A DNA stretch of 44,295 nucleotides from IMG/VR virus record IMGVR_UViG_3300050019_000029, positions 1 to 44,295 of that record; one strand, written 5' to 3'. The stretch comes from a virus. This document shows positions 3,840-41,997 of the stretch, one piece after another (within the stretch, counting starts at the first letter, position 1; each line of letters opens with the position of its first letter). The notes under the pieces were generated by a model, which searched no databases, was not told the DNA's origin, and saw only the letters and a list, made by a program, of their open reading frames with translations. A program made the translations under genes and the position numbers.

Positions 3840-6464
3840 ATGGCCGGTCTGATCGACCCGAACGACATCGCGAAGGCCCGACAGTCCGGCTATTCCGACA
3901 CGGAAATATCTACGTTCCTTGCTGACAAGCACCCTGACCAGTTCAAGGCTGCGAAGGCGGCAGGATATAGCGACAGCGAAATTCTCAGCCACCTAGCGCC
4001 CACCACACCAGAGCCCTCTGGCCCCGGCGCAGGCTTCGCACACGGCGTGGCAGGCGTGTTTGGTGGACCAGCCTCAACTATTGGCCTCACTGGCGCTCCC
4101 ACGGATACGCTAGACGCTATCAAGAACAGCGCAGAGCCAGCGAACTACCAGCCCGCTCCAATCTTCGATAAGGCTGGCTTCCACCCCGGCAACATCGCGC
4201 AGTCTCTCGCAGAGGCCGCCCCTGGCTTAACTACTGACATCCTCGCTGGCAAGACTGGCGCAATGGTCGGCAATAAGGTCGGCGGCGTACGTGGTGGCGT
4301 AGTCGGAGGCCTCGGAGGCTTCTTAGGCTCCGCATTCCTCCGCAACTTCGGCCCCGGCGCACACGAGAACGCTGACGCCCGCACGGGTGTTCCCAACTCC
4401 CCTGTAGCAATGCAGGACATGACCCGAGAAGTCGGCAAGCAGGGCCTCGAAGCTGTTCCTAACATGCTCCTTGGTGGACGCTTTGTCCCCGGAGTCGCTA
4501 AGTCTCTCGCAGAGAGTGCTCTAGCTAAGATCGGCACGACAGCCGCTGTTGGTGGAGGCGTCGGTGCTACTAACGACTTAATCAATCAAGTTGGCACCAC
4601 GGCAGGATCAAAGGACGGCGTAAAGTATGACTGGCACGGCGGCGCGAACGCGGCGACTACGGGCGCTTTGCTTAACACTGCGCTGGCTTCACCAAGGGCT
4701 GCCGCAGATGTCGCAGGAAACATCAAGTACGGTGGAATTGAAAGCGACCCCGAGAACAGAGCCGCAGCCACTCTCGTAGCCAACAGGAATGTTGAAGCTG
4801 CAGACGGTCGTAAGCTAAACAGCGCCGCGACATCCCAAGATGTCAAAGACAACGTATCCGCTGATATTCGCAAAGAACTATCAGCCTCAGCGAAGGGCGA
4901 GAGCAATCTCTCCCAAGGCACTTCCAACACACTAGCTCGCATTCAGCAGGGCGGCACAGCCAGCCCGACCGAACTCAATGCTCTCTCTAACGAAGCCTCC
5001 CCAGAAACGGCAAGCCTCGCACGCCAAGCTCTGTTATCGTCACAGACAAAGGCCCTTGGTGGTCTCTCTGATGGTAGTCTCTCTGGCCCCATGGATAAGC
5101 TTGGGATCATGAGGCCCGGAGTCGCGGCGACCGCCTTAGCTGCGGCAGCGACAGGCGCTCACTTAGGCCTTGCAGCCTCAGTGCCTGCGCTCGGAGCTGT
5201 CTACGGAGCCTACGGCCTCGCTCGTGGCATCGACAAACTCACAGGAGCCCGCTCGCCCGTTCAAGGCTTCACGAACAGGTTTGCGGACGCCAATGTCCCC
5301 ATTCGTGCTCCCGAAGCCGTACCCGCTCAGCCTGCTCCTGTGAGCACTTCAGTGCCTCAGATAGCTCCTCCGCAGGACACACAGCTGTGGGGTGCTCCTA
5401 AGCCTGAAGCCCCCAGCATCGACGCCAACGCTCAGAACGCCGACATCCAAGGCATGCTCCGCATGGCGGCAGCACGTCGGAATGTAGCTGCTGAACAACA
5501 GGCCGCTGCAGCTCCTCCAGCTCCCGCGCCTGCGGCCCCGGCCATCGACCCCAACCTGCTCCCGCGTTCCATCACTGGTCCTGCGAGGAACATAACGCGG
5601 GGTTTCAAGAACTCGGCTCGGGCTCAGGAAGTGTTCAACATTGCCACCCGTAAGGCCGAAGGAACTGCACAGGCCGAAGGTCTCGCTGCAAATAGCCCTG
5701 CGATCAACGATCAGGGTGGCCTCAGCGCTCTCAGCAATCCTGAGTTCACCAAGCGTGGCTCACAGCTGCTTAGCGCAGCGAACGTCATGAAGAAGCTCAC
5801 GGCACAGCCCGCTGAAGTCTCTGACGCTCCCGCGTCTCCTGAGATTGCTGCAGCGATGCAGACGGTCGCCGCACACGCTGCTCCGCAAGGACAGGCTGCG
5901 CCCACAGCCAACGCAGCGCCTCCGGGTGCGCCCGCACCCTTCAGTGCGTTGATGCAGAGGCTCCATGACAGTGGCGCAATCACCGCACCTTCTGCGGAGA
6001 ATACAGCGCCAATCTTCGCACCGCCTGAGCCTCCGATGATCGCTAAGATCAGCAAGAAGCTCGGTAAGCCTGTGCAAGAGACGCCACACCCCGAAGAAGC
6101 CTTCGCCAAGGGCTACACCCCGATGGACAAAGAGCAGCTCTGGGGCAAAGGCATGCCTGACAAACAGTTCGCTCAGGCCGATGCCGCGAAGAAGTCCAAC
6201 CTCAAAGACCCCGAAGCCTACATGGAAGGCATCGTCCGCGACCGAACGAAACGGCGCGGCATCCTTGCTTCCATAGCTGGCGAGGGTCACGACGCAGACC
6301 AGACGCACATCGCGGACCTGCTCGAAGAGCTGCACCACACGCGCCGCGCAGACAAAGCGAACGGCGCAATCGGACACTTCACTGCGAAGATGTCTCCCGG
6401 CATGAGAGCTGCAGTACGCAAGCGCATGGACAAGAGTTTCATCAACAGTATGTGGAGCACATGA
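3840..6464 (+). CDS. Large internal virion / ejection protein
   Basis: This is an 874-residue protein, the largest encoded here. The N-terminus carries two copies of a short helical motif, ARQSGYSDTEISTFLA and AKAAGYSDSEILSHLA, which I know from other phage internal proteins. Residues about 135-170 and 420-460 are Gly/Ala-rich and hydrophobic and could insert into or cross a membrane. Residues about 480-720 are Pro/Ala-rich linkers. The C-terminal 130 residues are charged and helical. It lies directly before the terminase genes and its stop overlaps the terminase start (ATGA). I infer an ejection protein forming part of a trans-envelope channel, by analogy with T7 gp15/gp16 position rather than similarity. 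Confidence 0.75.
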   Translation: MAGLIDPNDIAKARQSGYSDTEISTFLADKHPDQFKAAKAAGYSDSEILSHLAPTTPEPSGPGAGFAHGVAGVFGGPASTIGLTGAPTDTLDAIKNSAEPANYQPAPIFDKAGFHPGNIAQSLAEAAPGLTTDILAGKTGAMVGNKVGGVRGGVVGGLGGFLGSAFLRNFGPGAHENADARTGVPNSPVAMQDMTREVGKQGLEAVPNMLLGGRFVPGVAKSLAESALAKIGTTAAVGGGVGATNDLINQVGTTAGSKDGVKYDWHGGANAATTGALLNTALASPRAAADVAGNIKYGGIESDPENRAAATLVANRNVEAADGRKLNSAATSQDVKDNVSADIRKELSASAKGESNLSQGTSNTLARIQQGGTASPTELNALSNEASPETASLARQALLSSQTKALGGLSDGSLSGPMDKLGIMRPGVAATALAAAATGAHLGLAASVPALGAVYGAYGLARGIDKLTGARSPVQGFTNRFADANVPIRAPEAVPAQPAPVSTSVPQIAPPQDTQLWGAPKPEAPSIDANAQNADIQGMLRMAAARRNVAAEQQAAAAPPAPAPAAPAIDPNLLPRSITGPARNITRGFKNSARAQEVFNIATRKAEGTAQAEGLAANSPAINDQGGLSALSNPEFTKRGSQLLSAANVMKKLTAQPAEVSDAPASPEIAAAMQTVAAHAAPQGQAAPTANAAPPGAPAPFSALMQRLHDSGAITAPSAENTAPIFAPPEPPMIAKISKKLGKPVQETPHPEEAFAKGYTPMDKEQLWGKGMPDKQFAQADAAKKSNLKDPEAYMEGIVRDRTKRRGILASIAGEGHDADQTHIADLLEELHHTRRADKANGAIGHFTAKMSPGMRAAVRKRMDKSFINSMWST

Positions 6465-6991
6465 CAAAGAAGCTAGACCCCGACAGGCCCAACAAAGCTC
6501 GTCGGGGTCGGCCTCCCAAGGCCAAAGGCACCAACTCCGCGCGTCTTAAGGCCATCTGGGCAGACCCAGAACGCCGCGCTGAGATGATTACAAAGATCAA
6601 GGCTGCACGCGCCATCCAAGCGATAGAGCGCCTCGCCAACCCCCTTAAATTCTCGCGCATTGGAACCCCTAACGGGATGACCCGGCGCTCCGCAGCTCCT
6701 CTGTGGAAAAAAGCTCGCCAACAGGCAGACAGGTATGTTCAGAAGATGAAAGACGAAGGCGTTATCTCCGACGTGATCGTTCCCGACAGCGATGAGGCCA
6801 AAGGCGTTGCAGCTCTCCACCAAGCTACGGTAATCGCGCTCGGACCTTCCGACAAGGTTACGAAGCTAGCAGCGATCCGCACGGTTCTCGAATACACGCG
6901 CTCCAAGCCAGAGAGCAAGTCTAAGATGACCATCAACACGTCTGAACAGTGGCTGGCAGCAATTGCCGCCGACGATGCAGGCTCAGAATAA
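6461..6991 (+). CDS. terS: Putative terminase small subunit
   Basis: The 176-residue product is basic. Its N-terminus holds an AT-hook-like motif, RRGRPPK, and the middle is helical, as expected for a DNA-recognition subunit. The gene overlaps the previous stop in an ATGA quartet, which is why I start at 6461; an in-frame ATG at 6452 would add three residues. The large terminase gene follows with a 17-nt overlap, and position is the main evidence. The role would be to recognise concatemer DNA and load it onto the large subunit. No family match is certain from sequence alone. Confidence 0.7.
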   Translation: MTKKLDPDRPNKARRGRPPKAKGTNSARLKAIWADPERRAEMITKIKAARAIQAIERLANPLKFSRIGTPNGMTRRSAAPLWKKARQQADRYVQKMKDEGVISDVIVPDSDEAKGVAALHQATVIALGPSDKVTKLAAIRTVLEYTRSKPESKSKMTINTSEQWLAAIAADDAGSE

Positions 6992-14090: not shown

Positions 14091-14166
14091 AGGTGCGTAG
14101 CTCAGCTGGTAGAGCGCTCGGCTCTGAACCGAGAGGTCGGTGGTTCAACCCCATCCGCGCCCGCCA
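14091..14166 (+). tRNA. tRNA-Gln (anticodon CUG)
   Basis: The cloverleaf can be drawn. The acceptor AGGTGCG pairs with CGCGCCC (one G-U, and an A-C mismatch at the outermost pair). The D arm is GCTC/GAGC with an AGCTGGTA loop. The anticodon stem CTCGG/CCGAG has loop CTCTGAA, giving anticodon CTG at 14124-14126. The T arm is GGTGG/CCATC with TTCAACC. The discriminator is G and the CCA end is encoded (14164-14166). It reads CAG codons, which are frequent in the structural genes. It lies between the capsid-neighbour gene and the adaptor gene. Confidence 0.95.
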
Positions 14167-30267: not shown

Positions 30268-30434
30268 GCTCCCACCCTTCCAGCCCGCCAAGCGTTCATG
30301 AACTCACGATGAAACACGCGGTTCTCGTCCTTGCTCATGGCCCTGCGGTCGAACACCACGGGCTGGCCATCAGCGCCGCGCACGGTGACATCGTTGTAGG
30401 CCGCGCCCAGGCGGATCGTGACGTTGTTCTTCAT
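30264..30434 (-). CDS. Small early protein, unknown
   Basis: A ribosome site (ggagaag) seven bases before ATG 30434 sets the start, giving 56 residues (MKNNVTIRLGAAYNDVTVRG, then ADGQPVVFDRRAMSKDENRVFHREFMNAWRAGRVGA). The C-terminal basic helix (DENRVFHREFMNAWRAGR) is striking and could bind nucleic acid. No family known to me. Confidence 0.65.
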   Translation of the reverse strand: MKNNVTIRLGAAYNDVTVRGADGQPVVFDRRAMSKDENRVFHREFMNAWRAGRVGA

Positions 30435-30961: not shown

Positions 30962-31128
30962 TTCGTGAACTCCATGTTCTGTATGATGCGGTTCTCAAGA
31001 TCACCCACGTTGATCCCACGAGCTTCGAGCTGCGCGGCGGCACGCGGCGGGATTGGCACACCGTTCAGGATGGCGGCGCGTACGATGCGCTGGGCATCGA
31101 GGCTTTCACGCAAAGGCAAAGTCGGCAT
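30958..31128 (-). CDS. Small protein after RNA polymerase, unknown
   Basis: From ATG 31128 it has 56 residues (MPTLPLRESLDAQRIVRAAI, LNGVPIPPRAAAQLEARGINVGDLENRIIQNMEFTK), a helical, basic protein. It overlaps the polymerase 3' end by 23 nt and the next gene by four. In T7 the gene after RNA polymerase (0.7 or 1.1/1.2 region) often encodes host-control proteins, but no similarity is seen here. Confidence 0.6.
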   Translation of the reverse strand: MPTLPLRESLDAQRIVRAAILNGVPIPPRAAAQLEARGINVGDLENRIIQNMEFTK

Positions 31129-33640
31129 TGAGGATGTCCTTGAGGTTGAGGTTTCCATAGGTCAGAAGATCAGGAAGCTTGTTCCGATTTGCATCGGTTA
31201 GGTCACACGAAGCCTGCTCGTGTATCTCGGTGAGCACGTCGTGCGTCTCGTACATCAGCGCGAACTGCTCGCGTATGATCTTGTTGAACTGCGCGGCTTG
31301 GGGGGCCAAGCATCCAAAAGAATCATGCACCGTCGCAATGCTAGTGATACCAGCAGCAGCTGCAGCGTTAGACACAAGCAGAAGGTGCGCAGCATCCAGA
31401 GCATGTACGAAGTTAGGCGCAACGCCGTTAGCTGCTTTGTCTTTATCAATTGCTTTCTTGCTCCCTGTTGTCAGCAGAACCTGGGTGCGAACCTTCACAC
31501 CACAGTCATTCAGATACAGCTCAACACTCGTCATCTCTGGCGCGTGGTAGCGATTGATCCATGGGATACCCACAGGGCTCGTCCACATGACAGGCTTGCC
31601 CTCGTGCGCCATGGCTTTCGCAATCGTCTGCAGAAACTTCATGGCCTCTGCAGGCTTGTGAATGCGACGTTCGATGGCGTTGAAGATATGCCCTGCGATG
31701 TAGTTAGAGCCCTTCGACGGCATTGCGTTGCCGTGCTTGTCATAAGGTCCATGCTGGTATCCCTCGAAGGGATGCTCTTCGTACTTGCCTTCGAGCACAT
31801 CACGGGCCAGAGGCTCCATGAGGTCTACTTGCTGCTGTGATGCCATGCCGAACTTCTTAGAGCTGTAGGCGTAAGTCATCACGTTGCGCTTCGCGAGCTT
31901 GCGGCGGTCGCCCTCGTACTCAAGGAACAGCTTGGAGAGGTCAGAGTTCTCAGTGTCGGCAGCTACAGCCGCGAAGGTGTCGTCAGCTATGACTTGGTAG
32001 ACATCCTGTGGGATCGACGAAGGCGTTAAGTTCACCATCGTCCCCTCTGCGGCTCTCGTCATCGCGCATAGGTGTTGTAGTCCCGAACAGGAACCGTCGA
32101 AGCTGACTGGCAGTTGGGTTATAGACGATAATCCCTCTACCAGCACCCTCGACAACTCGAAACATGCTGCGAGGAACAGGAAGGGTTTGTCCGCGTCCAT
32201 CCACTCGGTGTGGAAGAGAGGGGCCGAAGCTATGTTCCCAATCAGTTGGATAGACGTATCGCACCATTGCACGCGCTCCTCTAATGGCCGTTTGCTAATC
32301 TTGTTGAAGTCACCGCAGTTAGCAGTGTGAACCTTGAGCCACCACAGGCCTTCCTCGCCAATGGCCGCACCGTCAGCGAAGTTGAACAACGCGCGTACAC
32401 GGTCCTCACGTTGGAAGTTGAAGTGTGAGAGTGCATAGACGCGTCCACGCCAGTCACAATTAATGGGCGTGTAGAAGGCCTCCTGCTTTGCTAGAGCCTC
32501 AGCCGTGTTCATATCCTCCGCGAAGAGCACACGATCACCAATGAAGCCCCTGTTGGTCTGATCAATCTCAGAGCGCTTCCTATGCCACAGGCCCTGCTGC
32601 GCCTTGGACATCTCTGACCAGTGGAACGCGTCGGGCTTCACAGGCCTCTTGAGGTTCACGGGCACGAGGCCCTTGACGATGAGCTGATACTCGGCACACT
32701 GCTGCAGCACGAAGAGCACCTTGGTGTTGATCGCGAACGGCACAGACTGGAGCGTGTTGAGAGCATCCAATGTTGGCTGCATGGTCCCGGTCTTGATGGC
32801 GTGCTTCACAGCAGCCTGAGTATCCTTGTGATAGCTTCGCAGCACTGTAGCGCTCACACGAGGGTCCCAAGAGCCTCCGTCGTTCCAGCCTGTCCAAGGC
32901 TTGGGTGCGATGGCGCTGGGCCAGAACACGGGGTTGCTGGTGACGGCGTGGTCAAGAGCCACGTCCACGATGCTCCAAGCGGCTTCGCTCAGCGTGATCA
33001 GGTACTCCGACTTGAAGCCCTTGATCGGCATCTCAGTGCGCAGGAACACCTCAGGCAGCGCGCCGCTGATGATGTTCCAGAGCCACGCTCCCGCGATAAG
33101 ACGCGACTTGTCGTTCCACGTTCGTACCTTGAAGCCCACCAGCTTGCCTTCTGAGGCCAATGCAACAGTCTTGGCTTTGGCGGCATCTAGGCGGCGCTTA
33201 ACGCTGGAATGCCTCAGCTTGACCGTCTTGGCGATACGCTGGGCTATCTTTGGGTGATCCTCAGTTAGTTCAGCACCCCAGCACTCATGGGCTAGGGCGG
33301 TGCCCATCGAGAGTAGCGTCTTTGGGAACGCCTCACGCAGGCCAATGGAGTGCAGGACCGTCTGAATACCGCAGAGCGCTATGAGTTCTGGAGATAGATC
33401 ACGAACAGTGGACACCAATCTTGCCTCGGCTCTTGTCCCTGTGCCACCCCTAACAGATGCCTGTGCAGCGTCTAGGAGGGCGTAGCGCACTGCCTCAGTA
33501 AGCTGCTCATGGTAACGTCTTGTGAGAGCTTGACCGCCTGTGGTCGCTCCCCAGCCCGTCGCTATCTCGCTCCTAAGGTCAGCCTTGTCGAGCTTAGTAA
33601 TTGATCGGTTAAATTCGTCTGGGAGGGTATTAAGTTCCAT
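31106..33640 (-). CDS. Single-subunit DNA-directed RNA polymerase (T7 type)
   Basis: With ATG 33640 it has 844 residues (T7: 883); a TTG adds one. The catalytic motifs are all present: DWRGRVYALSHFNFQ; FDGSCSGLQHLCAM with the metal-binding Asp (about 516); KRNVMTYAYSSKKFG with the nucleotide-binding Lys and Tyr (about 585 and 593); and VHDSFGCLAP with the second catalytic Asp. It should transcribe phage genes from its own promoters; I could not define those. The ribosome site aggag is about 12 nt upstream. It is transcribed leftward, opposite to the structural genes, and follows the integrase after a 292-nt non-coding stretch. Confidence 0.96.
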   Translation of the reverse strand: MELNTLPDEFNRSITKLDKADLRSEIATGWGATTGGQALTRRYHEQLTEAVRYALLDAAQASVRGGTGTRAEARLVSTVRDLSPELIALCGIQTVLHSIGLREAFPKTLLSMGTALAHECWGAELTEDHPKIAQRIAKTVKLRHSSVKRRLDAAKAKTVALASEGKLVGFKVRTWNDKSRLIAGAWLWNIISGALPEVFLRTEMPIKGFKSEYLITLSEAAWSIVDVALDHAVTSNPVFWPSAIAPKPWTGWNDGGSWDPRVSATVLRSYHKDTQAAVKHAIKTGTMQPTLDALNTLQSVPFAINTKVLFVLQQCAEYQLIVKGLVPVNLKRPVKPDAFHWSEMSKAQQGLWHRKRSEIDQTNRGFIGDRVLFAEDMNTAEALAKQEAFYTPINCDWRGRVYALSHFNFQREDRVRALFNFADGAAIGEEGLWWLKVHTANCGDFNKISKRPLEERVQWCDTSIQLIGNIASAPLFHTEWMDADKPFLFLAACFELSRVLVEGLSSITQLPVSFDGSCSGLQHLCAMTRAAEGTMVNLTPSSIPQDVYQVIADDTFAAVAADTENSDLSKLFLEYEGDRRKLAKRNVMTYAYSSKKFGMASQQQVDLMEPLARDVLEGKYEEHPFEGYQHGPYDKHGNAMPSKGSNYIAGHIFNAIERRIHKPAEAMKFLQTIAKAMAHEGKPVMWTSPVGIPWINRYHAPEMTSVELYLNDCGVKVRTQVLLTTGSKKAIDKDKAANGVAPNFVHALDAAHLLLVSNAAAAAGITSIATVHDSFGCLAPQAAQFNKIIREQFALMYETHDVLTEIHEQASCDLTDANRNKLPDLLTYGNLNLKDILNADFAFA

Positions 33641-33932
33641 CAAGGGAAAGCTCCTGGTACGAGAGGTTCTTGGGGTTCTTAAGAGGTTCTTAAGAGCCTG
33701 CGAGGTTCGATCTGAGCGACCCTATGGAAGGGTCAGTACGTATCTCTCTAACCTATTGAAAACTAAGCAAATGATGCCCAAACGCAGCATATTCCGGTTG
33801 GTCAACATTCTCGGGGTGGAAAAGCCCGCCGTAGCGATCCTGTGGGGCCTTAGATGATCAGCAGCAACACATGTCAAGGGGAACACACTACCAACAAGGA
33901 TGGCATGTCCCCTAGGGCCACTCACACAACAG
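33641..33932. other. Non-coding region between integrase and RNA polymerase (candidate attP / leader)
   Basis: No gene is seen in these 292 bases. They contain three ggttctt repeats near 33663-33698, a GACCCT-ATGGA-AGGGTC hairpin (33718-33734), GTTGGTCAAC (a 4-bp-armed palindrome), and an AGGGGA/TCCCCT inverted pair 28 nt apart near 33876-33915. As the region next to the 3' end of the integrase it is the natural place for attP. No tRNA-like core was found, so the attachment site is a proposal. Confidence 0.35.
33663..33698. repeat. Phased ggttcttaag repeats
   Basis: Three copies of ggttctt(a/g) start at 33665, 33674 and 33685, with the last two continuing as ttaagag. Spacing is 9-11 bp. The core TTAAG recurs in the arrays at 37.95, 38.4 and 40.1-40.36 kb. 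Confidence 0.6.
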
Positions 33933-35009
33933 CTAACCTACTGATTTCACGAAGGGTAGCACGGTCGATGCCACAGCGTTTTCGGTGGTTTCCCCACGGC
34001 GTGGGTAACGATTTTTTAGAGCCCGCCTGAGGTCTTCCTTCTCGACGTGGACGTACTTCATGGTCGTCTTGATGTTCTTATGTCCTAGGAACTCCTGAAC
34101 ATCTGGCAGCGGCGTTCCGTTCTTGATCATCTCAGTCGCAGCACCGTGGCGCGCGTTATGGATGCCAAGCTTGGGCGAATACCCACACGATTTCACCGCA
34201 GACTTGAGACGTGTTCTCATTGACAGGTAAGTCGGCAGGGTTCCCGTGACCACCATGGCCTTGAGTTCCCTAGCCAGAACATCATCGATCGGCACGTCTC
34301 GAGGGGTGTCCGTCTTGGTCTCGTCCAGCAGTATCCATTCCGTCTGGCACTGATGTGGCTCGAGCCCTGCGAACTCACCCCAGCGCATGCCTGTGGCGCA
34401 CAGGACCCGCAGCGCCAGCGCCTCGGCAGGCCAGCCTTGGGTGGTCATGAAGGGCACCAGAACGTCGACCTGGGCGTCCGCGAACCAGTGAATGCGCCTG
34501 CCAGCCTCCTTGCGCCACGGGATCACAGGAGCGCTTATGGGCGCCTCGCCCTCCTTGACGCGCGCGCGGGCGAACGTCACCACGCTTGAGAAGGCCGACA
34601 GGTATCGGTTGAGGGTGCTATCGCTGATCTTGTCCTTGCCCGACATCTGGGCTGGGCGCTTCTCCAAGTCCGCCACGAGCGCGTCAAGCACGCTGGTGTT
34701 GATGGACGGGATGGTCATGTGTCCTAGGCGGTTCACGAGGTAGTCGAGCCTGCGGGTTCCTGAGGGGTCTCTGGTGCCCTTCTTAGTGGCGCGCATGAGG
34801 ACCACCGTCTCCTTGAACGTAGGCCCAGCCAGCCGCGCGTCCGTGAACGTCGCAGGCTCCTCGCCCGTGGCGTGAACGTAGGCCTCGTAGCCCTCAGCGC
34901 CCCGTTTGGTCTCAAAGCGCCGCCTGAAGCGCTCGCCGGTCACCTTGAGCACGACTTCGCCGTACCAGTGGCCCGTCAGCTTGTGGTCACGTTTCTCTGC
35001 ATAAGCCAT
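33933..35009 (-). CDS. int: Tyrosine-recombinase integrase
   Basis: This 358-residue enzyme carries all active-site residues: R209 (TGMRWGEFAGL), K232 (TKTDTPRDVPI), H284/R287 (HNARHG), H310 (LGHKNIKTT) and the nucleophile Y319 (MKYVHV). The N-terminal 60 residues form the arm-binding part, with basic strands (GERFRRRFETKRG), and 64-170 the SAM-like core-binding domain (LNRYLSAFSSVVTFARARVK). It should insert the phage into the host chromosome and makes a temperate life style plausible. Integrases do occur in some T7-like phages of marine bacteria. The gene is downstream of a small lipoprotein gene and shares its promoter. Confidence 0.95.
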   Translation of the reverse strand: MAYAEKRDHKLTGHWYGEVVLKVTGERFRRRFETKRGAEGYEAYVHATGEEPATFTDARLAGPTFKETVVLMRATKKGTRDPSGTRRLDYLVNRLGHMTIPSINTSVLDALVADLEKRPAQMSGKDKISDSTLNRYLSAFSSVVTFARARVKEGEAPISAPVIPWRKEAGRRIHWFADAQVDVLVPFMTTQGWPAEALALRVLCATGMRWGEFAGLEPHQCQTEWILLDETKTDTPRDVPIDDVLARELKAMVVTGTLPTYLSMRTRLKSAVKSCGYSPKLGIHNARHGAATEMIKNGTPLPDVQEFLGHKNIKTTMKYVHVEKEDLRRALKNRYPRRGETTENAVASTVLPFVKSVG

Positions 35010-35812: not shown

Positions 35813-36226
35813 TCACTTGAACGCCTCGCACATTTCCCACACGACGTGCTTGCCCTTGGCCGACAAGCGTATCAATCGGTTCCTGCGGTCCATCAAGTCA
35901 TCGTAGGCTTCCACGAGGCCCATGCCTTCCTCGTGATAGCGGTTGACTTCGCCCAGATCCGCAAGGTGTCGCGTCATGAGGGACTGAGAGGTCCCGGCGC
36001 GCTTGGCGTACTCGGTGACGTTTAGGTGCTCCTCAGTGGCCACCAATAGAAACGCGGTGGCGTACTGAAGAGGCATCGTTTCCCGCACTTTGCGGAAGGG
36101 TTTAAGGGCGTTAAGCTGGCTCTTGAGCGCTCTAATCTGGTCAGCCGTTATACTCGCCCTATGCCCTGCACTCATACTCATAGCCCCCGCCATGCGCTCG
36201 CGATGGTCGCCTACTAATGCGTCCAT
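35813..36226 (-). CDS. MarR-like winged-helix regulator
   Basis: From ATG 36226 it has 137 residues; starts at 36193 or 36178 are also possible. The core reads MPLQYATAFLLVATEEHLNVTEYAKRAGTSQSLMTRHLADLGEVN, a winged helix with recognition helix SQSLMTRHLADL. The wing and C-terminal helix (VEAYDDLMDRRNRLIRLSAKGKHVVWEMCEAF) end in the LSAKG phrase (usually LTxKG) that marks MarR-type proteins. Residues up to about 50 are a basic helix. It likely represses an early or lysogeny promoter; the target is not known. It lies two genes upstream of the integrase unit. Confidence 0.82.
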   Translation of the reverse strand: MDALVGDHRERMAGAMSMSAGHRASITADQIRALKSQLNALKPFRKVRETMPLQYATAFLLVATEEHLNVTEYAKRAGTSQSLMTRHLADLGEVNRYHEEGMGLVEAYDDLMDRRNRLIRLSAKGKHVVWEMCEAFK

Positions 36227-36357: not shown

Positions 36358-36726
36358 TTAAGCAATAGCCCTGATCGTGGCCGAAGCCACTGTGCACACC
36401 TTGAGTGCTTCACCGTGCCTGTCGCAAAAATGAAGCACCAGCCCATCTTCAATGTCTTCCGTTCCGTATGGTTCCAGCCACATGTGATTGCGCCAAGGGG
36501 CAAGCCCCCAATGCAGACGGTCCATGAGGATGTTCGTGAACCCTGTGGATGCGTCGATGTGATCCACAGTGCCCTGTTCCCCTTTCTCGATTTGCGCCTC
36601 GTGCCCTAGGTCCAGAGGCCTAGAGATGGTGATGCGGTCCCCAATGTTCAAAGCGTTAGGTGTATCGATAGATACTAGAGCGGACGACAGACGACCGTCC
36701 GCATTAACGATGAATGCACGCTTCAT
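36358..36726 (-). CDS. Small SH3-like early protein, unknown
   Basis: The 122-residue protein begins MKRAFIVNADGRLSSALVSI and contains IGDRITISRPLDLGHEAQIEKGEQGTVDHIDASTGFTNILMDRLHWGLAPWRNHMWLEPY, a beta-barrel-like pattern with a GExGTVxxID turn known from small phage and KOW/SH3-like domains. A tail with one CDRHGE and one KVCT phrase follows. Function unknown. Confidence 0.75.
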   Translation of the reverse strand: MKRAFIVNADGRLSSALVSIDTPNALNIGDRITISRPLDLGHEAQIEKGEQGTVDHIDASTGFTNILMDRLHWGLAPWRNHMWLEPYGTEDIEDGLVLHFCDRHGEALKVCTVASATIRAIA

Positions 36727-36812
36727 TTAGTCCCCGTAGGTTTGTTGATCTTAGGCCCACTGGCCCTTAGGTTGCGTCTGAACTGATTTGCGTTGCAGAA
36801 CAAGTAGTAAAT
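36723..36812 (-). CDS. Tiny gene, possible ATT or TTG start
   Basis: The frame ends in an ATGA overlap with the next gene and encodes YYLFCNANQFRRNLRASGPK followed by INKPTGTK. A strong ribosome site (ggagggg) precedes an ATT (36812) by 7 nt; the alternative is TTG at 36803. The NANQFRRNLRxxGPK phrase is protein-like and occurs, as I recall, in short phage proteins. The region 36813-36978 holds a poor 33-codon frame and nothing else visible. Confidence 0.4.
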   Translation of the reverse strand: MYYLFCNANQFRRNLRASGPKINKPTGTK

Positions 36813-37942: not shown

Positions 37943-37970
37943 AGGATGGCTTAAGAGGTCTTAGGGTGTC
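37943..37970. repeat. YTARG decamer repeats (short array)
   Basis: On the minus strand CCCTAAGACC and TCTTAAGCCA lie side by side. The 9-mer CCTAAGACC recurs at 38980 and 40063. It is the leftmost of the arrays near the divergent control region and lies just before the gene at 37701-37907. Confidence 0.55.
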
Positions 37971-37971
37971 G

Positions 37972-38178
37972 TTAGATCGAGAGATGCGAAACCTTGTTCG
38001 CGGTGACCTCGATTGCCTTGCTCGCCTTGCGCCAGCAATAATCGCCGTCAATGTCTTGCCAATTGTCGCGCAGATGGTCGGCCTTCTCAGAGCAAACGAG
38101 AGATAGACCAGTGAGAACGTGCAAGAGTCCGTGAGCATCAATCATTGCTTCTAGGGCTTCGGTGATATCGTCTTTCAT
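37972..38178 (-). CDS. First gene of the leftward arm, unknown
   Basis: This encodes 68 residues (MKDDITEALEAMIDAHGLLH, VLTGLSLVCSEKADHLRDNWQDIDGDYCWRKASKAIEVTANKVSHLSI). The central phrase LVCSEKADHLRxNWQD.....WxKAxxxIEVxAxKVxxL appears in other small phage early proteins without known role. A good ribosome site (aaggaac) is 5 nt before the ATG. Being first after the control region, it should be expressed early. Confidence 0.75.
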   Translation of the reverse strand: MKDDITEALEAMIDAHGLLHVLTGLSLVCSEKADHLRDNWQDIDGDYCWRKASKAIEVTANKVSHLSI

Positions 38179-38420: not shown

Positions 38421-38530
38421 AAGCCCTAGGAAGGCCAAGGAGGGCCTATGTGGTCTCAAGCTGGGTGCATAGCTCTTAGGCGGTCTTAGGCGCTCCTAGG
38501 TGCTCCCTAGGTCTCTCAAGGCCTAGCAGC
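38421..38530. repeat. Decamer array, consensus NNGYYYTAGG, about 10-bp phase
   Basis: Eleven consecutive 10-base windows from 38421 contain, with one exception (38461-38470), a gYYYYARG-like core: ccctagg, gccaagg, gcctatg, tctcaag, then ctcttagg, gtcttagg, ctcctagg, ctccctag, tctcaag, cctag. The five copies from 38471 to 38520 are in exact 10-bp register. CCTAGG itself, rare in many bacterial genomes, occurs three times. Confidence 0.8.
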
Positions 38531-38570
38531 CCTCAACGACGCAAGACAACCCCATAATAGGCATGGAATT

Positions 38571-38588
38571 GTGTGACGTACATCACAC
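38571..38588. promoter_or_regulatory. CRP/FNR-like operator palindrome
   Basis: GTGTGACGTACATCACAC is a perfect 6-bp-armed palindrome with a 6-bp centre and equals the CRP consensus TGTGA-N6-TCACA. It lies 13 bp from a TATTAT box on the minus strand (38553-38558), so it could control the leftward early promoter. The protein could be a host CRP-family regulator or a phage repressor. Confidence 0.7.
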
Positions 38589-38911
38589 AGGAACGCGCCA
38601 GTACGCCCCGGACAACTCAAGTATTCATCAGCGCCATGCCTCGACCATGCCCATGCTGTACACATCAAGGGATATCACATCCTTAGCAACACCAATGCAA
38701 TCAATGGCTTGCATGGCAGCGTGGGTTGATCCGTGGGGATTGGACGGTAAATGGGTCCCCTTTGGGGGCCTGAATTTCCCAAGATTTCCCAGGAGCGACT
38801 TCAAAATCTTTGGGGCTTTACGCCCGCTGCTGCTGGCCTGAATACTCGTGTCTTGAAGTCTAAAAATAGGGGTCCCGGTATTCTGGAAGTGTGGCAAGTA
38901 TATGGCACTTT

Positions 38912-38927
38912 GGACACATGTATGTCC
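38912..38927. promoter_or_regulatory. Second N6-spaced palindrome
   Basis: GGACA-CATGTA-TGTCC has 5-bp perfect arms and a 6-bp centre, the same geometry as the site at 38571 with different arms. It is about 85 bp before the first rightward gene and may be an operator for the rightward promoter. Confidence 0.4.
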
Positions 38928-39011
38928 CGTTTTGAGGTCATTTCGTTTATTATCAATGGGTTAGCGAGATAACTACTGACCCTAAGACCTGACGCGCCTT
39001 GATGCGCTGAC

Positions 39012-40049
39012 ATGACCCCGGCTGATGGACAAATCTATAGCCTCGCCGGGGCACCTCTTTACTTAGGACCTCCCAAGTTGCCTTTAGAAACCGCCACCTA
39101 CCTCTCGGACCTCGTTACGAGCAATCCGGCCCACACGGACGGTCTCTCGCAGGCCGACAGCCACGCGAGGCTCATCAAGAGCACTCTGAAGGCCACCTTC
39201 CCCAACTTCACCGGAGTAGCTCTTGCGAGCACTCAGGCGCAGCTCGATGCTGCGGTCTCTGTGGCTGCTGGTACGACCCCCTCGCGCATTCCTATGGGCA
39301 CCGCAGCTCTCCCAGGCCTCACGGTGGTGGGCGATATCAACAGCGGCTGGTGGAGCCCTGCGGCTGACCAGCTCGCCCTGTCGCTCGCAGGAACTCAGGT
39401 GCTGCTCCTGGGCGGCACTGCGCTCGTCACGACCCTCGGTGTCGCTGCTGCGGCGTTCACGACCACTGGCGCGTACTCAGGAGGCACAGGACAGCTTGTG
39501 CCCATCGGTGCCGTGCTCGAGTGGTACGACGATGTGCTGCCTGCTGAAGGCGGCTACTGCTGGGCTAACGGCCAGATCATCGCTTCTGCAAATACCGTGT
39601 GTCCGGTCCTCTTGGGACGCTGGAGCAACAAGTTTGGTGGCAACGGTACGACCACGATGGGAGTGCCTGATAGGCGCGACACTGTTGGCGTGGGTAAGAG
39701 CACCATGGGCGGCGTTGCTTCACGCTCGCTGCAGACGCTGACCAACACTGTGCTCGGCACATTGCTTGGTCTTGCTAACAACGTCCTCACCACGCTGAAC
39801 CTTCCGCCCTACATACCATCCGGCTCGGTTGCCTCTACGTCAACGCCAACCACTATCGTGCAAGGCGCGCTGGTTTCAACATCTGCTGGCTCTGGCTCCG
39901 CCATTCAGGCGATTTCAAATGGCACTGGCGCAACCGGAAGCGTGGCTTCCACAGGCGCACTTGCCGGAAACGCACAGGGGGGCACGAGCTCACCTGTGAA
40001 CAACGTGCAGCCGTCGACCACTTGCAACTACATTCTGAGGCTTGCCTAA
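39012..40049 (+). CDS. Tail collar-domain fibre
   Basis: This protein of 345 residues opens the rightward arm. The N-terminal YLSDLVTSNPAHTDGLSQADSHARLIKSTLKATFPNFTG is a common phage fibre head-binding element. The centre (LVPIGAVLEWYDDVLPAEGGYCWANGQIIA, PVLLGRWSNKFGGNGTTTMGVPDRRDTVGVGKSTMGG) is a tail-collar domain, in which the G-x-PDxRG-like turn is the receptor-facing loop. It ends NVQPSTTCNYILRLA, the usual end of collar proteins. It is separated from the other tail genes by a 313-nt repeat-rich region with its own terminator and promoter candidates. Confidence 0.9.
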   Translation: MTPADGQIYSLAGAPLYLGPPKLPLETATYLSDLVTSNPAHTDGLSQADSHARLIKSTLKATFPNFTGVALASTQAQLDAAVSVAAGTTPSRIPMGTAALPGLTVVGDINSGWWSPAADQLALSLAGTQVLLLGGTALVTTLGVAAAAFTTTGAYSGGTGQLVPIGAVLEWYDDVLPAEGGYCWANGQIIASANTVCPVLLGRWSNKFGGNGTTTMGVPDRRDTVGVGKSTMGGVASRSLQTLTNTVLGTLLGLANNVLTTLNLPPYIPSGSVASTSTPTTIVQGALVSTSAGSGSAIQAISNGTGATGSVASTGALAGNAQGGTSSPVNNVQPSTTCNYILRLA

Positions 40050-40076
40050 GTCTTGCCTCAATCCTAAGACCACCCA

Positions 40077-40113
40077 AGAAACCCCTGATAACATTGCACA
40101 ACATGGGGTTTCT
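40077..40113. terminator. Stem-loop terminator candidate after collar fibre gene
   Basis: AGAAACCCC (40077-40085) pairs perfectly with GGGGTTTCT (40105-40113) across a 19-nt loop, 27 nt after the stop of the fibre gene. There is no long T-run after it, so it may be a weak terminator, a processing site or a pause. Confidence 0.5.
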
Positions 40114-40235
40114 GGTGGACCCTTAGCGGCCCTCGTCGCGGGCTTCTTAAGAGTTCTAAAGAGCCCTTCGGTTTCTGATGATCACTCTACTTAAGAGTTC
40201 TCAAGAGCCTAAGAGCGACTAAGACCATCTTCGAT

Positions 40236-40253
40236 GGGGATTATAATATCCCC
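40236..40253 (+). promoter_or_regulatory. Consensus -10 box inside a palindrome
   Basis: GGGGAT-TATAAT-ATCCCC: a perfect TATAAT is framed by perfect 6-bp inverted arms. With a 17-bp spacer the -35 would be CTAAGA (40219-40224), which is weak and is itself one of the repeat cores. It could drive the tail genes from 40363 under control of a protein that binds the repeats or the palindrome. Confidence 0.42.
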
Positions 40254-40362
40254 CTCCTAAGAGAGACGCTTCAGGCGCTCTTAAGAGCACCTTCTCCCTT
40301 TCACTGTGTGTCCACTTAGAAGATCACCCTAGGTGCTCTTAAGAACTCCTAGGAAACCCTTC

Positions 40363-41997
40363 ATGAGCATCGAACACATCCGAGACATCGCCAAGTATGG
40401 TGTCCTCTGTGATCCCGATCCCTACAATCTCCCCGATACCGCATGGAGCTTCGGCGTCAACATTCGCTTTAGGAACGGCAAGGTCTCTTCAGGCCCCGTC
40501 TTCCGGAACGTCTTTCCACTTGGGACCGCATCCCCGCGCTATAGTGTAGCAGCCTCACCTGTGTCCGGTTTGGACCTCCTCTTCACGGGCTACCTCAACG
40601 GCAAGCTCTACAAGTTCAACGGCTCAGAGACCGACTACACTCTAGCGGGGTATACGCCCTCGTCCGCAGAAGGCACTTGGTCCCAGACCAGCCTCGCGAA
40701 CATCCTGTACGTCAATCGCTCTGATCGTGCCCCTTGGTATCTCCGCTCCTCTGACACCGCCTTCCAGAACCTTGGTGTCCCGTCAGGCGCGCCCACCTCT
40801 TGGGATAGCACGCACACCTGCCAGCTCCTCAGGACCTGTGGCGGCGCTCTAGTCGCTTTGAATGTCACCAAAGGCGCGACCAACTACCCGACGATGGTTA
40901 AGACGTCTTCTATTCCGTTGTCCGGTGTGATCCCTGCTTCATGGGACATCTCCCTTGCGAACACCTTAGCCACCGAGAACATCCTCGCTGAGCTTAAAGG
41001 AAGCATCACTGACGCTCAGCAGTTCGGCTCGTATCTCGTCATCTACGGATTGAGTGAAGCTTGGTTCATGCAGGCGGATCAGTCGATCCAGGTCTACAAC
41101 TACCGCAAGCTCCCGTTCCAGAAGGGCTCCCTCAACGCCAACTGTTCCTTCGAACTCGATGGCAAGCACTTCGTCTTTGGTGTCGATGACATCTGGATGC
41201 ACGACGGCAACTCAGAAGTCTCCATCGTAGACGAGAAGAACCGCGACTTCATCTTCAGCTCGATCAACATGTCGAAGAAGAACCGATGCTTCATCAGCCA
41301 CAACGCACAGCTCAAGGAGTTGTCGTTCAACTACATCTCTGGTGACAGAGGCGTGGGCTTCCTTGGAGCACCTGACGGGTGCAATCGTGCCGCTGTCTAT
41401 AACTACAGCGACAAGACGATGACGTTTGATGACCTTCCACTGGTTTACTCCTCAGCCAGTGCGAACCTCAGCATCTCGACCACCTATGCCACTACCACGG
41501 CGTTGTACTCAACGACGGGCGGCTCATACCTCGATCAGGAAGACGGCTTCAAGCGAACTCCAGTTTACGTTGGAGACAGCAACACCACGTACAACCTCAC
41601 GACCTCCTTGTACGCTCAGGACCTCTTCGGTACGGGCTCCACGGTCGCTTTCCCTGTGGACACCAATGCAACTCTTCCACGCTACTTAGAGAGAGACGGA
41701 ATTGACCTCGACAGCCTCAACTTGGACTTGCGGGGCTACAAGGTGGTCTCCTCGATATATCCTCAAGGACGATTCGGCGCTGGTGCCGCCCCGCTCATGT
41801 TCTCCGTGGGAGCTGCAGACTTCTTCACCACGACGCCCATCTTCAGTGCTTATCAGCCATACGATGGCAACACGAACTACAAGCTGGACTTCAACATCGC
41901 TGGCCGCTGGCTCTCCATGAAGATCAAGTACTCCGATTACAATGAGATGTCCTTGTCAGGTTTCGACATTGATATCCACGCAGATGGACAAGCATAG
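40363..41997 (+). CDS. Tail nozzle/hub-type structural protein
   Basis: From ATG 40363 (ribosome site aggaaac) it encodes 544 residues. The N-terminus EHIRDIAKYGVLCDPDPYNLPDTAWSFGVNIRFRNGKVSSGPVFR is the start of a family of podovirus tail-tube proteins; I know it from SU10/HMO-like tails, where it fills the place of T7 gp12. The rest is beta-rich (SGLDLLFTGYLNGKLYKFNG, LVIYGLSEAWFMQ, FVFGVDDIWMHDGNSEVSIVDEKNRDFIFSSIN, FNIAGRWLSMKIKYS) and fits a beta-propeller tail nozzle. No enzymatic motif is seen. The next genes follow within 10 nt, as one tail operon. Confidence 0.85.
   Translation: MSIEHIRDIAKYGVLCDPDPYNLPDTAWSFGVNIRFRNGKVSSGPVFRNVFPLGTASPRYSVAASPVSGLDLLFTGYLNGKLYKFNGSETDYTLAGYTPSSAEGTWSQTSLANILYVNRSDRAPWYLRSSDTAFQNLGVPSGAPTSWDSTHTCQLLRTCGGALVALNVTKGATNYPTMVKTSSIPLSGVIPASWDISLANTLATENILAELKGSITDAQQFGSYLVIYGLSEAWFMQADQSIQVYNYRKLPFQKGSLNANCSFELDGKHFVFGVDDIWMHDGNSEVSIVDEKNRDFIFSSINMSKKNRCFISHNAQLKELSFNYISGDRGVGFLGAPDGCNRAAVYNYSDKTMTFDDLPLVYSSASANLSISTTYATTTALYSTTGGSYLDQEDGFKRTPVYVGDSNTTYNLTTSLYAQDLFGTGSTVAFPVDTNATLPRYLERDGIDLDSLNLDLRGYKVVSSIYPQGRFGAGAAPLMFSVGAADFFTTTPIFSAYQPYDGNTNYKLDFNIAGRWLSMKIKYSDYNEMSLSGFDIDIHADGQA

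Follow-up and report, generated by a model that had tools for sequence, protein, structure and literature searches.

What are the short repeated words that fill the control regions of this phage genome, and do they mark its physical ends or the starts of its transcription units? The window, by which we mean the whole stretch of DNA analysed (44,295 nucleotides), is a 44.3-kb virus record that belongs by gene content to a short-tailed phage, encoding a T7-type RNA polymerase, DNA polymerase and primase-helicase together with a LUZ24-like head module. Its map, based on genes called with our own simple codon-usage caller, is bidirectional: the early genes run leftward on the minus strand, starting at 38178, and the plus strand carries the late genes from 39012 on. 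The minus strand carries the T7-type single-subunit RNA polymerase (about 31106-33643; phrog_414, E=1e-177), an adjoining tyrosine integrase (33933-35009; phrog_1, E=9e-45), which indicates a temperate lifestyle, and a winged-HTH-like transcription regulator (35813-36226; phrog_9665, Pfam HTH_1/MarR below cut-off, and an alignment), a candidate for the protein that binds the repeats. On the plus strand, a tail protein (39012-40049; phrog_8763/6465) is the first late gene, and a virion structural protein (40363-41997; phrog_3287) follows 3' of the late-side repeats. A tRNA-Gln (CTG) lies within the structural region at 14091-14166, and at gathering score Rfam recognised only a tRNA in the whole window.

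Most of the relatives compared are metagenomic contigs. The two close ones, G001 and G002, share mostly 45-85% protein identity with the window, and a Microvirga flocculans prophage (G005) is among the further ones. GANTC is scarce in the window, and this, taken together with the Microvirga relative, points to a host among the alphaproteobacteria. CCWGG, GGCGCC and GAGCTC are, like GANTC, strongly under-represented across the whole window, a pattern that suggests avoidance of host methylation or restriction and a CcrM-type host. An early gene of G001 contains a 15-bp tandem coding repeat (CGCCACGCAGGTTAG, ~44790-45000) that the window does not have.

CYTARG arrays in the window and its relatives

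The repeated word is the hexamer C-C/T-T-A-A/G-G (CYTARG), set in front of genes in steps of 10-11 bp. The main early-side array (38475-38511, minus strand), which we examined in the sequence and against chance controls, consists of CTTAGG, CTTAGG, CCTAGG and CCTAGG at 38475, 38485, 38495 and 38506; read on the minus strand, these units become CCTAGG/CCTAAG and point to the early genes. The first-pass annotation had described five copies in perfect register at 38471-38520, but there are four exact units, at steps of 10, 10 and 11 bp, and a degenerate fifth that reaches about 38520. Three further minus-strand sites had been listed: an outlying CCTAGG at 38425-38430, a CTTAAG and a CTTAGG 10 bp apart at 37950/37960 (37950-37965) between two early genes, and the doublet TCTTAAGA-N3-TCTTAAGA at 33678/33689 (33678-33694), whose step is 11 bp, in the RNA polymerase gene's untranslated leader. 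On the plus strand, a late-side array (40063-40353) between the tail-protein and virion-protein genes combines nine exact units, at 40063, 40146, 40190, 40208, 40256, 40280, 40328, 40338 and 40348, with degenerate YYNAAGARC units, and its final trio stops about 10 bp short of the ATG at 40363. A single CCTAAGACC (38981-38986, plus strand) overlaps the late promoter-like element at its 3' end.

All of these listed core positions (38425, 38475-38506, 40063-40348, 37950/37960, 33678/33689 and 38981) do hold CYTARG, and two further CTTAGG units, 16 bp apart, can be added to them at 36750-36771 on the minus strand, 23-39 bp upstream of the early gene 36358-36726. The asserted 10-bp steps stand at 37950/37960 and 40328/40338/40348 but not in the 33.7-kb pair, whose step is 11 bp. 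Likewise, the phasing claimed for 40050-40362 applies to the last three units, whereas most of those at 40050-40300 follow one another at 18-48 bp, with degenerate units between. In G001, an HNH-endonuclease-like gene (L002 3796-4180) separates the late-side array from the phrog_3287 virion gene, an insertion that is missing from the window and G002.

We found 65 CYTARG words in the whole window against 27 +/- 5 in dinucleotide shuffles, and seven pairs at 9-11 bp against 0.04 expected. Intergenic DNA alone holds 29 words (shuffled mean 4.6, maximum 12 in 1000 shuffles) and seven pairs at 9-11 bp (shuffled mean 0.01; none of the 1000 shuffles reached seven), and density is about 7-8 times higher there than in coding DNA (7.1/kb vs 0.83/kb). 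G001 and G002 share the window's arrays at matching places, with 23 intergenic words and five phased pairs in the former and 19 and six in the latter; when their late-side arrays are aligned with that of the window, the units are kept and the spacers drift. Even the distant relative G008 has 13 intergenic words and four phased pairs, and it has an array upstream of the same tail gene. No enrichment was seen by shuffle comparison in the more distant relatives G005, G006, G009 and G012. The first-pass annotation had named two findings that would speak against the pattern, cores no more frequent or phased in non-coding DNA than in shuffled sequence, and arrays absent from collinear relatives; since the cores are in excess and phased and the arrays recur in G001, G002 and G008, neither applies, and the arrays are confirmed as real.

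Position and orientation in untranslated leaders

The cores sit in the untranslated leaders of the RNA polymerase gene and the early operon and in the gap before the phrog_3287 virion gene, and they are oriented. In co-directional intergenic DNA of the window, G001 and G002, the sense strand reads CCTAAG at 25 of 29 asymmetric units (25:4; binomial P=1e-4), compared with 29:28 in the coding control (Fisher P=0.002 for intergenic vs coding), although P values on such pooled counts are optimistic because the relatives are not independent. Shine-Dalgarno arrays were considered and set aside: TAAGGAG suits a few units beside starts, but the bias persists at 21:4 when units within 20 bp of start codons are dropped.

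Two promoter-like elements precede these leaders. GAGAGATACGTACTGACCCT lies upstream of the RNA polymerase gene (33729-33748, minus strand), and its near-copy GCGAGATAACTACTGACCCT upstream of the late operon (38964-38983, plus strand). The window, G001 and G002 each possess their own genome-specific pair of ~20-bp near-copies, upstream of the RNA polymerase gene and of the first late gene; these paired 20-mers are probably promoters of the phage RNA polymerase that diverge together with the polymerase. In the RNA polymerase and late leaders of the window, units lie downstream of these elements, which are putative promoters predicted from sequence. In the window and G002, the RNA-polymerase-leader array is located between the promoter-like element and the start codon, and in G001 one exact unit is left in this leader and the others are degenerate.

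A conserved non-coding module of another kind (GGGTCCC..., TTCAAAA...TTTAC..., TATCAATGGGTTAG) adjoins the arrays upstream of the tail gene (38745-38965, plus strand) and could serve as an origin, as a packaging site or in late control. Its pattern, TTCAAAA-n-(G)nTAAAG/TTTA...(TTG)n or GCTGCTGCTG, plus TATCAATGACTTAG, was found in the window, G001, G002, G008, G021, G030, G006, G005 and G009, and is partly kept among phages with only 30-50% protein identity; Rfam had no match for it. The early-late control regions of G008 (L032, ~464-535) and G005 (L021, ~6875-6930) contain another phased array, with GGGTCCCMTTT or GGTCCCATCAG at ~11 bp.

The same core stands behind annotated promoters of phages with a homologous virion module. 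In LUZ24, which also has the same bidirectional layout, CYTARG falls within -10..+80 of five of the seven annotated sigma-70 promoters, a match that none of 20,000 random placements reached (P=0.012 with placement restricted to intergenic DNA). In phage tf it lies just downstream of six of the ten annotated sigma-70 promoters (0 of 20,000 random placements), within a search window that differs from that used for LUZ24 because the tf promoter annotations are longer. Promoters of both phages were taken as annotated in their records; the tf paper cites experimentally identified LUZ24 promoters (PMC3517423). In the LUZ24 and tf leaders, the asymmetric units read sense CCTAAG without exception (6:0), and the doublet in the RNA polymerase leader of the window is built like the one conserved in LUZ24 and PaP3 (11 bp). 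The window resembles LUZ24, PaP3 and tf in its bidirectional map, homologous virion genes, an 11-bp doublet and sense CCTAAG, and may resemble them in CYTARG units just past promoters, which in its own case are putative; it differs from them in that they have fewer units and no phage RNA polymerase. To our knowledge, the CTTAAG leaders of these three phages have not been described as an element, and neither CCTAAAG nor CTTAAG turned up as a described phage element in our literature searches. LUZ24 also contains paralogous promoter-leader modules at 30312 and 45080 that are near-identical over ~60 bp (TTGACA...TATAATagacctataggctCTTAAGattccttcttcc), one of which starts the late region and the other of which lies inside it.

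CYTARG is very probably a conserved cis-acting leader and terminal-region array of T7-type podoviruses. Its presence both in the leaders of integrase-carrying T7-type phages and behind annotated LUZ24 and tf promoters turns attention away from genome ends and towards transcription starts, and since the core stands directly behind promoters of the easily grown phages LUZ24 and tf, its function becomes testable in laboratory phages.

Possible modes of action: a protein on the DNA or an element in the RNA

The idea of a cooperative operator, already raised by the first-pass annotation, is kept here as the leading reading, at somewhat less than an even chance: the arrays could be directional tandem sites at the starts of transcription units that act as DNA operators. 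On this reading, each short near-palindromic core, CCTAAG on the sense strand where asymmetric, would bind a small dimer of a DNA-binding protein from phage or host. The cores lie between promoter and initial start codon in three leaders, those of the RNA polymerase gene, the early operon and the phrog_3287 virion gene. A step of one helical turn would place dimers on adjacent units side by side, and the bound dimers might set the amount of transcription that enters the unit, as an operator or a roadblock. That a protein binds, does so cooperatively, acts on DNA and regulates in this sense is what we infer. A cooperative protein is favoured by the near-palindromic units one turn apart and by the doublet ATCTTAAGATAGTCTTAAG, which is kept in LUZ24-like leaders of ~75% identity, unlike the outer stem of the late-leader RNA. 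Counting against an operator are the lack of a helical register beyond neighbouring units, related T7, SP6 and pelagiphage-like arrays at 12-13 bp, a sense bias that is not universal, and leaders that fold better than shuffles.

Ribbon-helix-helix repressors such as MetJ, Arc and ParR bind cooperatively to short operator units, palindromic or direct, that follow each other at roughly one helical turn. The tandem units of the window are similar, but a Pfam scan that covered 30 proteins of the window, for the most part small and early, revealed no ribbon-helix-helix or other tandem-operator family; it returned an HTH_39 winged helix above cut-off and otherwise weak wHTH matches, and no one protein emerged as the obvious binder. 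A lysogenic repressor offers no general answer, because the lytic phages LUZ24 and tf carry the units as well. Stoperators of mycobacteriophage L5 are present in many copies in non-coding DNA and in a single orientation relative to transcription. The window shares with them the many non-coding copies and the orientation bias; in contrast to the dispersed 13-bp sites bound by the L5 immunity repressor, its sites are clustered in arrays, and no homologous repressor was recognised. The L5 site has been described as asymmetric and as bound by a monomeric repressor that stops elongation (PMC9283540).

The arrays might instead work at the RNA level, a close rival to which we give a somewhat lower probability: CUUAAG/CCUAAG could form the arms of a 5'-terminal stem-loop or tandem sites for an RNA-binding protein, and could act on stability, translation or antitermination in the manner of put RNA or a 5' protective hairpin. 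The units are always in transcribed leaders and are sense-oriented in the window clade, LUZ24 and tf. LUZ24 leaders open with GGCUCUUAAGA and close with UCUUAAGAGCC, with fold z-scores of -3.2, -4.2 and -3.6, and leaders of the window and G002 reach -4.6, -3.7, -2.9 and -2.3; moreover, in phage Epa1 the arm flank changes from GCUC to GCAC together with its partner, from GAGC to GUGC. Palindromic units, however, fold for free, the outer stem of the LUZ24 late leader is broken in PaP3, PSP30 and phPSJM, and other array stretches hardly exceed shuffles (z=-1.3 for the window's early array, z=-1.0 for the RNA polymerase leader). The sense CCUAAG units have no mutual pairing, which argues against selection for RNA hairpins. 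A boxA element (GCTCTTTA) was also considered and rejected; it resembles single units in RNA polymerase leaders but leaves the arrays unexplained, and elsewhere it is antisense.

Genome ends, phasing and other viruses

Short repeats at the ends of T7 have been known for decades, and we know of no accepted function for them. In T7, 16 of 25 CCTAAAG copies lie in the two terminal regions, all 16 on the plus strand and mostly at 13-bp steps; the T3 array beside the terminal repeats has steps of 12-13 bp, and at the SP6 left end CTTAGT recurs at 12-bp steps beyond ATCTGTT. As in the SRL/SRR arrays of T7 and T3, the window has a tandem CCTAA(A)G core, often followed by ACC and on one strand per array, in non-coding terminal or early control DNA of a T7-type phage. 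The T7 units, however, are 7-mers at steps of mostly 13 bp, confined to the two ends, whereas those of the window are near-palindromic hexamers that follow each other at 10-11 bp and occupy several leaders, the RNA polymerase leader among them. The SP6 array similarly repeats a CTTAG core, directly after its ATCTGTT-bearing left end and before the first gene, but differs from the window by its 12-bp step and its restriction to one region.

The comparison goes beyond similar lettering, since T7-type phages repeatedly carry arrays built on this core at one and the same place in the genome. Between its terminase and early genes, G023 has a 10-bp CYTARG array ~100 bp from T7-type CCCCTATCTGTT/CCCCTATCTGTTTTTTT, G053 likewise has one there, and L150, L121 and L128 carry 12-bp arrays in this gap, ~180 bp past the homologue of the 162-bp terminal repeat of HTVC019P. 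Within G023, the intergenic stretch 5080-6310 presents CCCCTATCTGTTTTTTT, which is like the T7 concatemer-junction pause, and then many degenerate ACRCCNYAGG units at ~12 bp, a layout as in a T7-type terminal region.

The arrays could flank a terminal repeat and have a part in cutting concatemers, in packaging or in replicating the ends, the role supposed for T7 SRL/SRR, but for the window we consider this unlikely. Apart from the T7, T3 and SP6 ends, the G023 and G053 gaps and the HTVC019P-type repeat in L150 and its relatives, the 184-bp terminal repeats of LUZ24 are in its favour: they lie in the divergent region equivalent to 38.2-39.0 kb, where the LUZ24 map suggests the physical ends of the window may be found. 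The late-side array also includes an invariant CTGTGTGTCC (40305-40314, plus strand; alignment of the window, G001 and G002) that resembles the T7 terminal-repeat edge CTCTGTGTCCCT, a resemblance only. On the other hand, not every array can mark an end when they occur in the RNA polymerase leader, at 37.95 kb and, on the late side, 1.3 kb in; the terminase of the window is not of the T7 gp19 type, and ATCTGTT is absent from its array regions. The proposed analogy to T7 SRL/SRR thus holds as kinship in kind, of one conserved control-region array to another, and a role at physical ends is no full account of a window with arrays in the RNA polymerase leader and the virion-gene gap.

Neighbouring units are 9-11 bp apart in the window, G001, G002 and G008, and the suggestion that one face of the DNA is read survives locally. 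It does not extend past neighbours: long-range helical phasing, convincing by eye in the neighbour spacings, was dropped after a Rayleigh test of spacings 14-45 in the window clade found no register (P = 0.69); other clades gave P=0.025, or P=0.155 for the best of the range, and other lineages have steps of 11, 12 and 13 bp. It is accordingly improbable that the arrays are simply bendable DNA, in which TA steps one turn apart ease wrapping by gyrase or HU/IHF-like proteins and no sequence-specific regulator takes part; the Y-T-A-R steps at 9-11 bp in these four genomes would suit it, but the missing register, the sense bias, which it would not lead one to expect, and the 12-13 bp steps elsewhere do not. 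CtrA boxes (TTAA-N7-TTAA) were rejected, as only the 11-bp TTAA doublets fit and most units do not. Hardly any weight falls on arm-type sites, 10-bp repeats bound by the phage integrase near attP: the doublet does lie in the gap between int and the RNA polymerase gene, where the prophage ends of the Microvirga relative are located, but the same arrays occur far from int, and the units are also present in the lytic phages LUZ24 and tf, whose records list no integrase.

Four CYTARG units at exact 10-bp steps were present in 30 viral contigs, compared with 10 for the reversed word GRATYC. A full-length T7-type primase-helicase (each E < 1e-150) was encoded in 13 of the 22 pattern-selected records examined and in none of 10 reversed-word controls (Fisher P=0.0016), a test that is indicative since record sizes differ and sister contigs are included. 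Six pattern-selected records had a T7-type RNA polymerase, all six of them also an integrase; among the 10 GRATYC contigs, none had a T7-type RNA polymerase or a strong T7-type primase-helicase match. These counts are indicative of a concentration of four-unit 10-bp arrays in T7-type podoviruses. No four-unit array was found in prophages among 385 genomes of the class of the Microvirga relative. Chance or a mutational microsatellite has a next to negligible probability as the origin of the window's arrays, given that some of the 30 contigs are indeed pure tandem repeats but the spacers in the window differ, the same places are kept in relatives, and the shuffles already contradict it.

The independent clade of L048 and L054 reaches intergenic CYTARG densities of 17-21 per kb, with arrays that extend to the start codons, and repeats the sense bias (20:4 and 15:2). 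This bias is not universal, being absent in G021 (4:5) and opposite in G023 (1:7). The recurrence in many T7-type phages points to a shared control element. More tentatively, the leader arrays could be one undescribed control system of T7-type podoviruses, directional, akin to the T7, T3 and SP6 terminal repeats and read by one un-annotated factor, which would span phages with or without their own RNA polymerase, lytic or temperate. If one factor does read them, it would be a regulator common to a very large group of podoviruses.

Several of the GRATYC control contigs are themselves 10-bp arrays of another word. GAATCC/GGATTC arrays at 10 bp with varied spacers occur in L106, L109, L111, L112 and L114, viral contigs without a T7-type RNA polymerase. 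A 12-bp step made a poor control pattern: being divisible by 3, it matched coding repeats for the most part; several of the few mixed-spacer non-coding matches at this step are T7-like phages as well.
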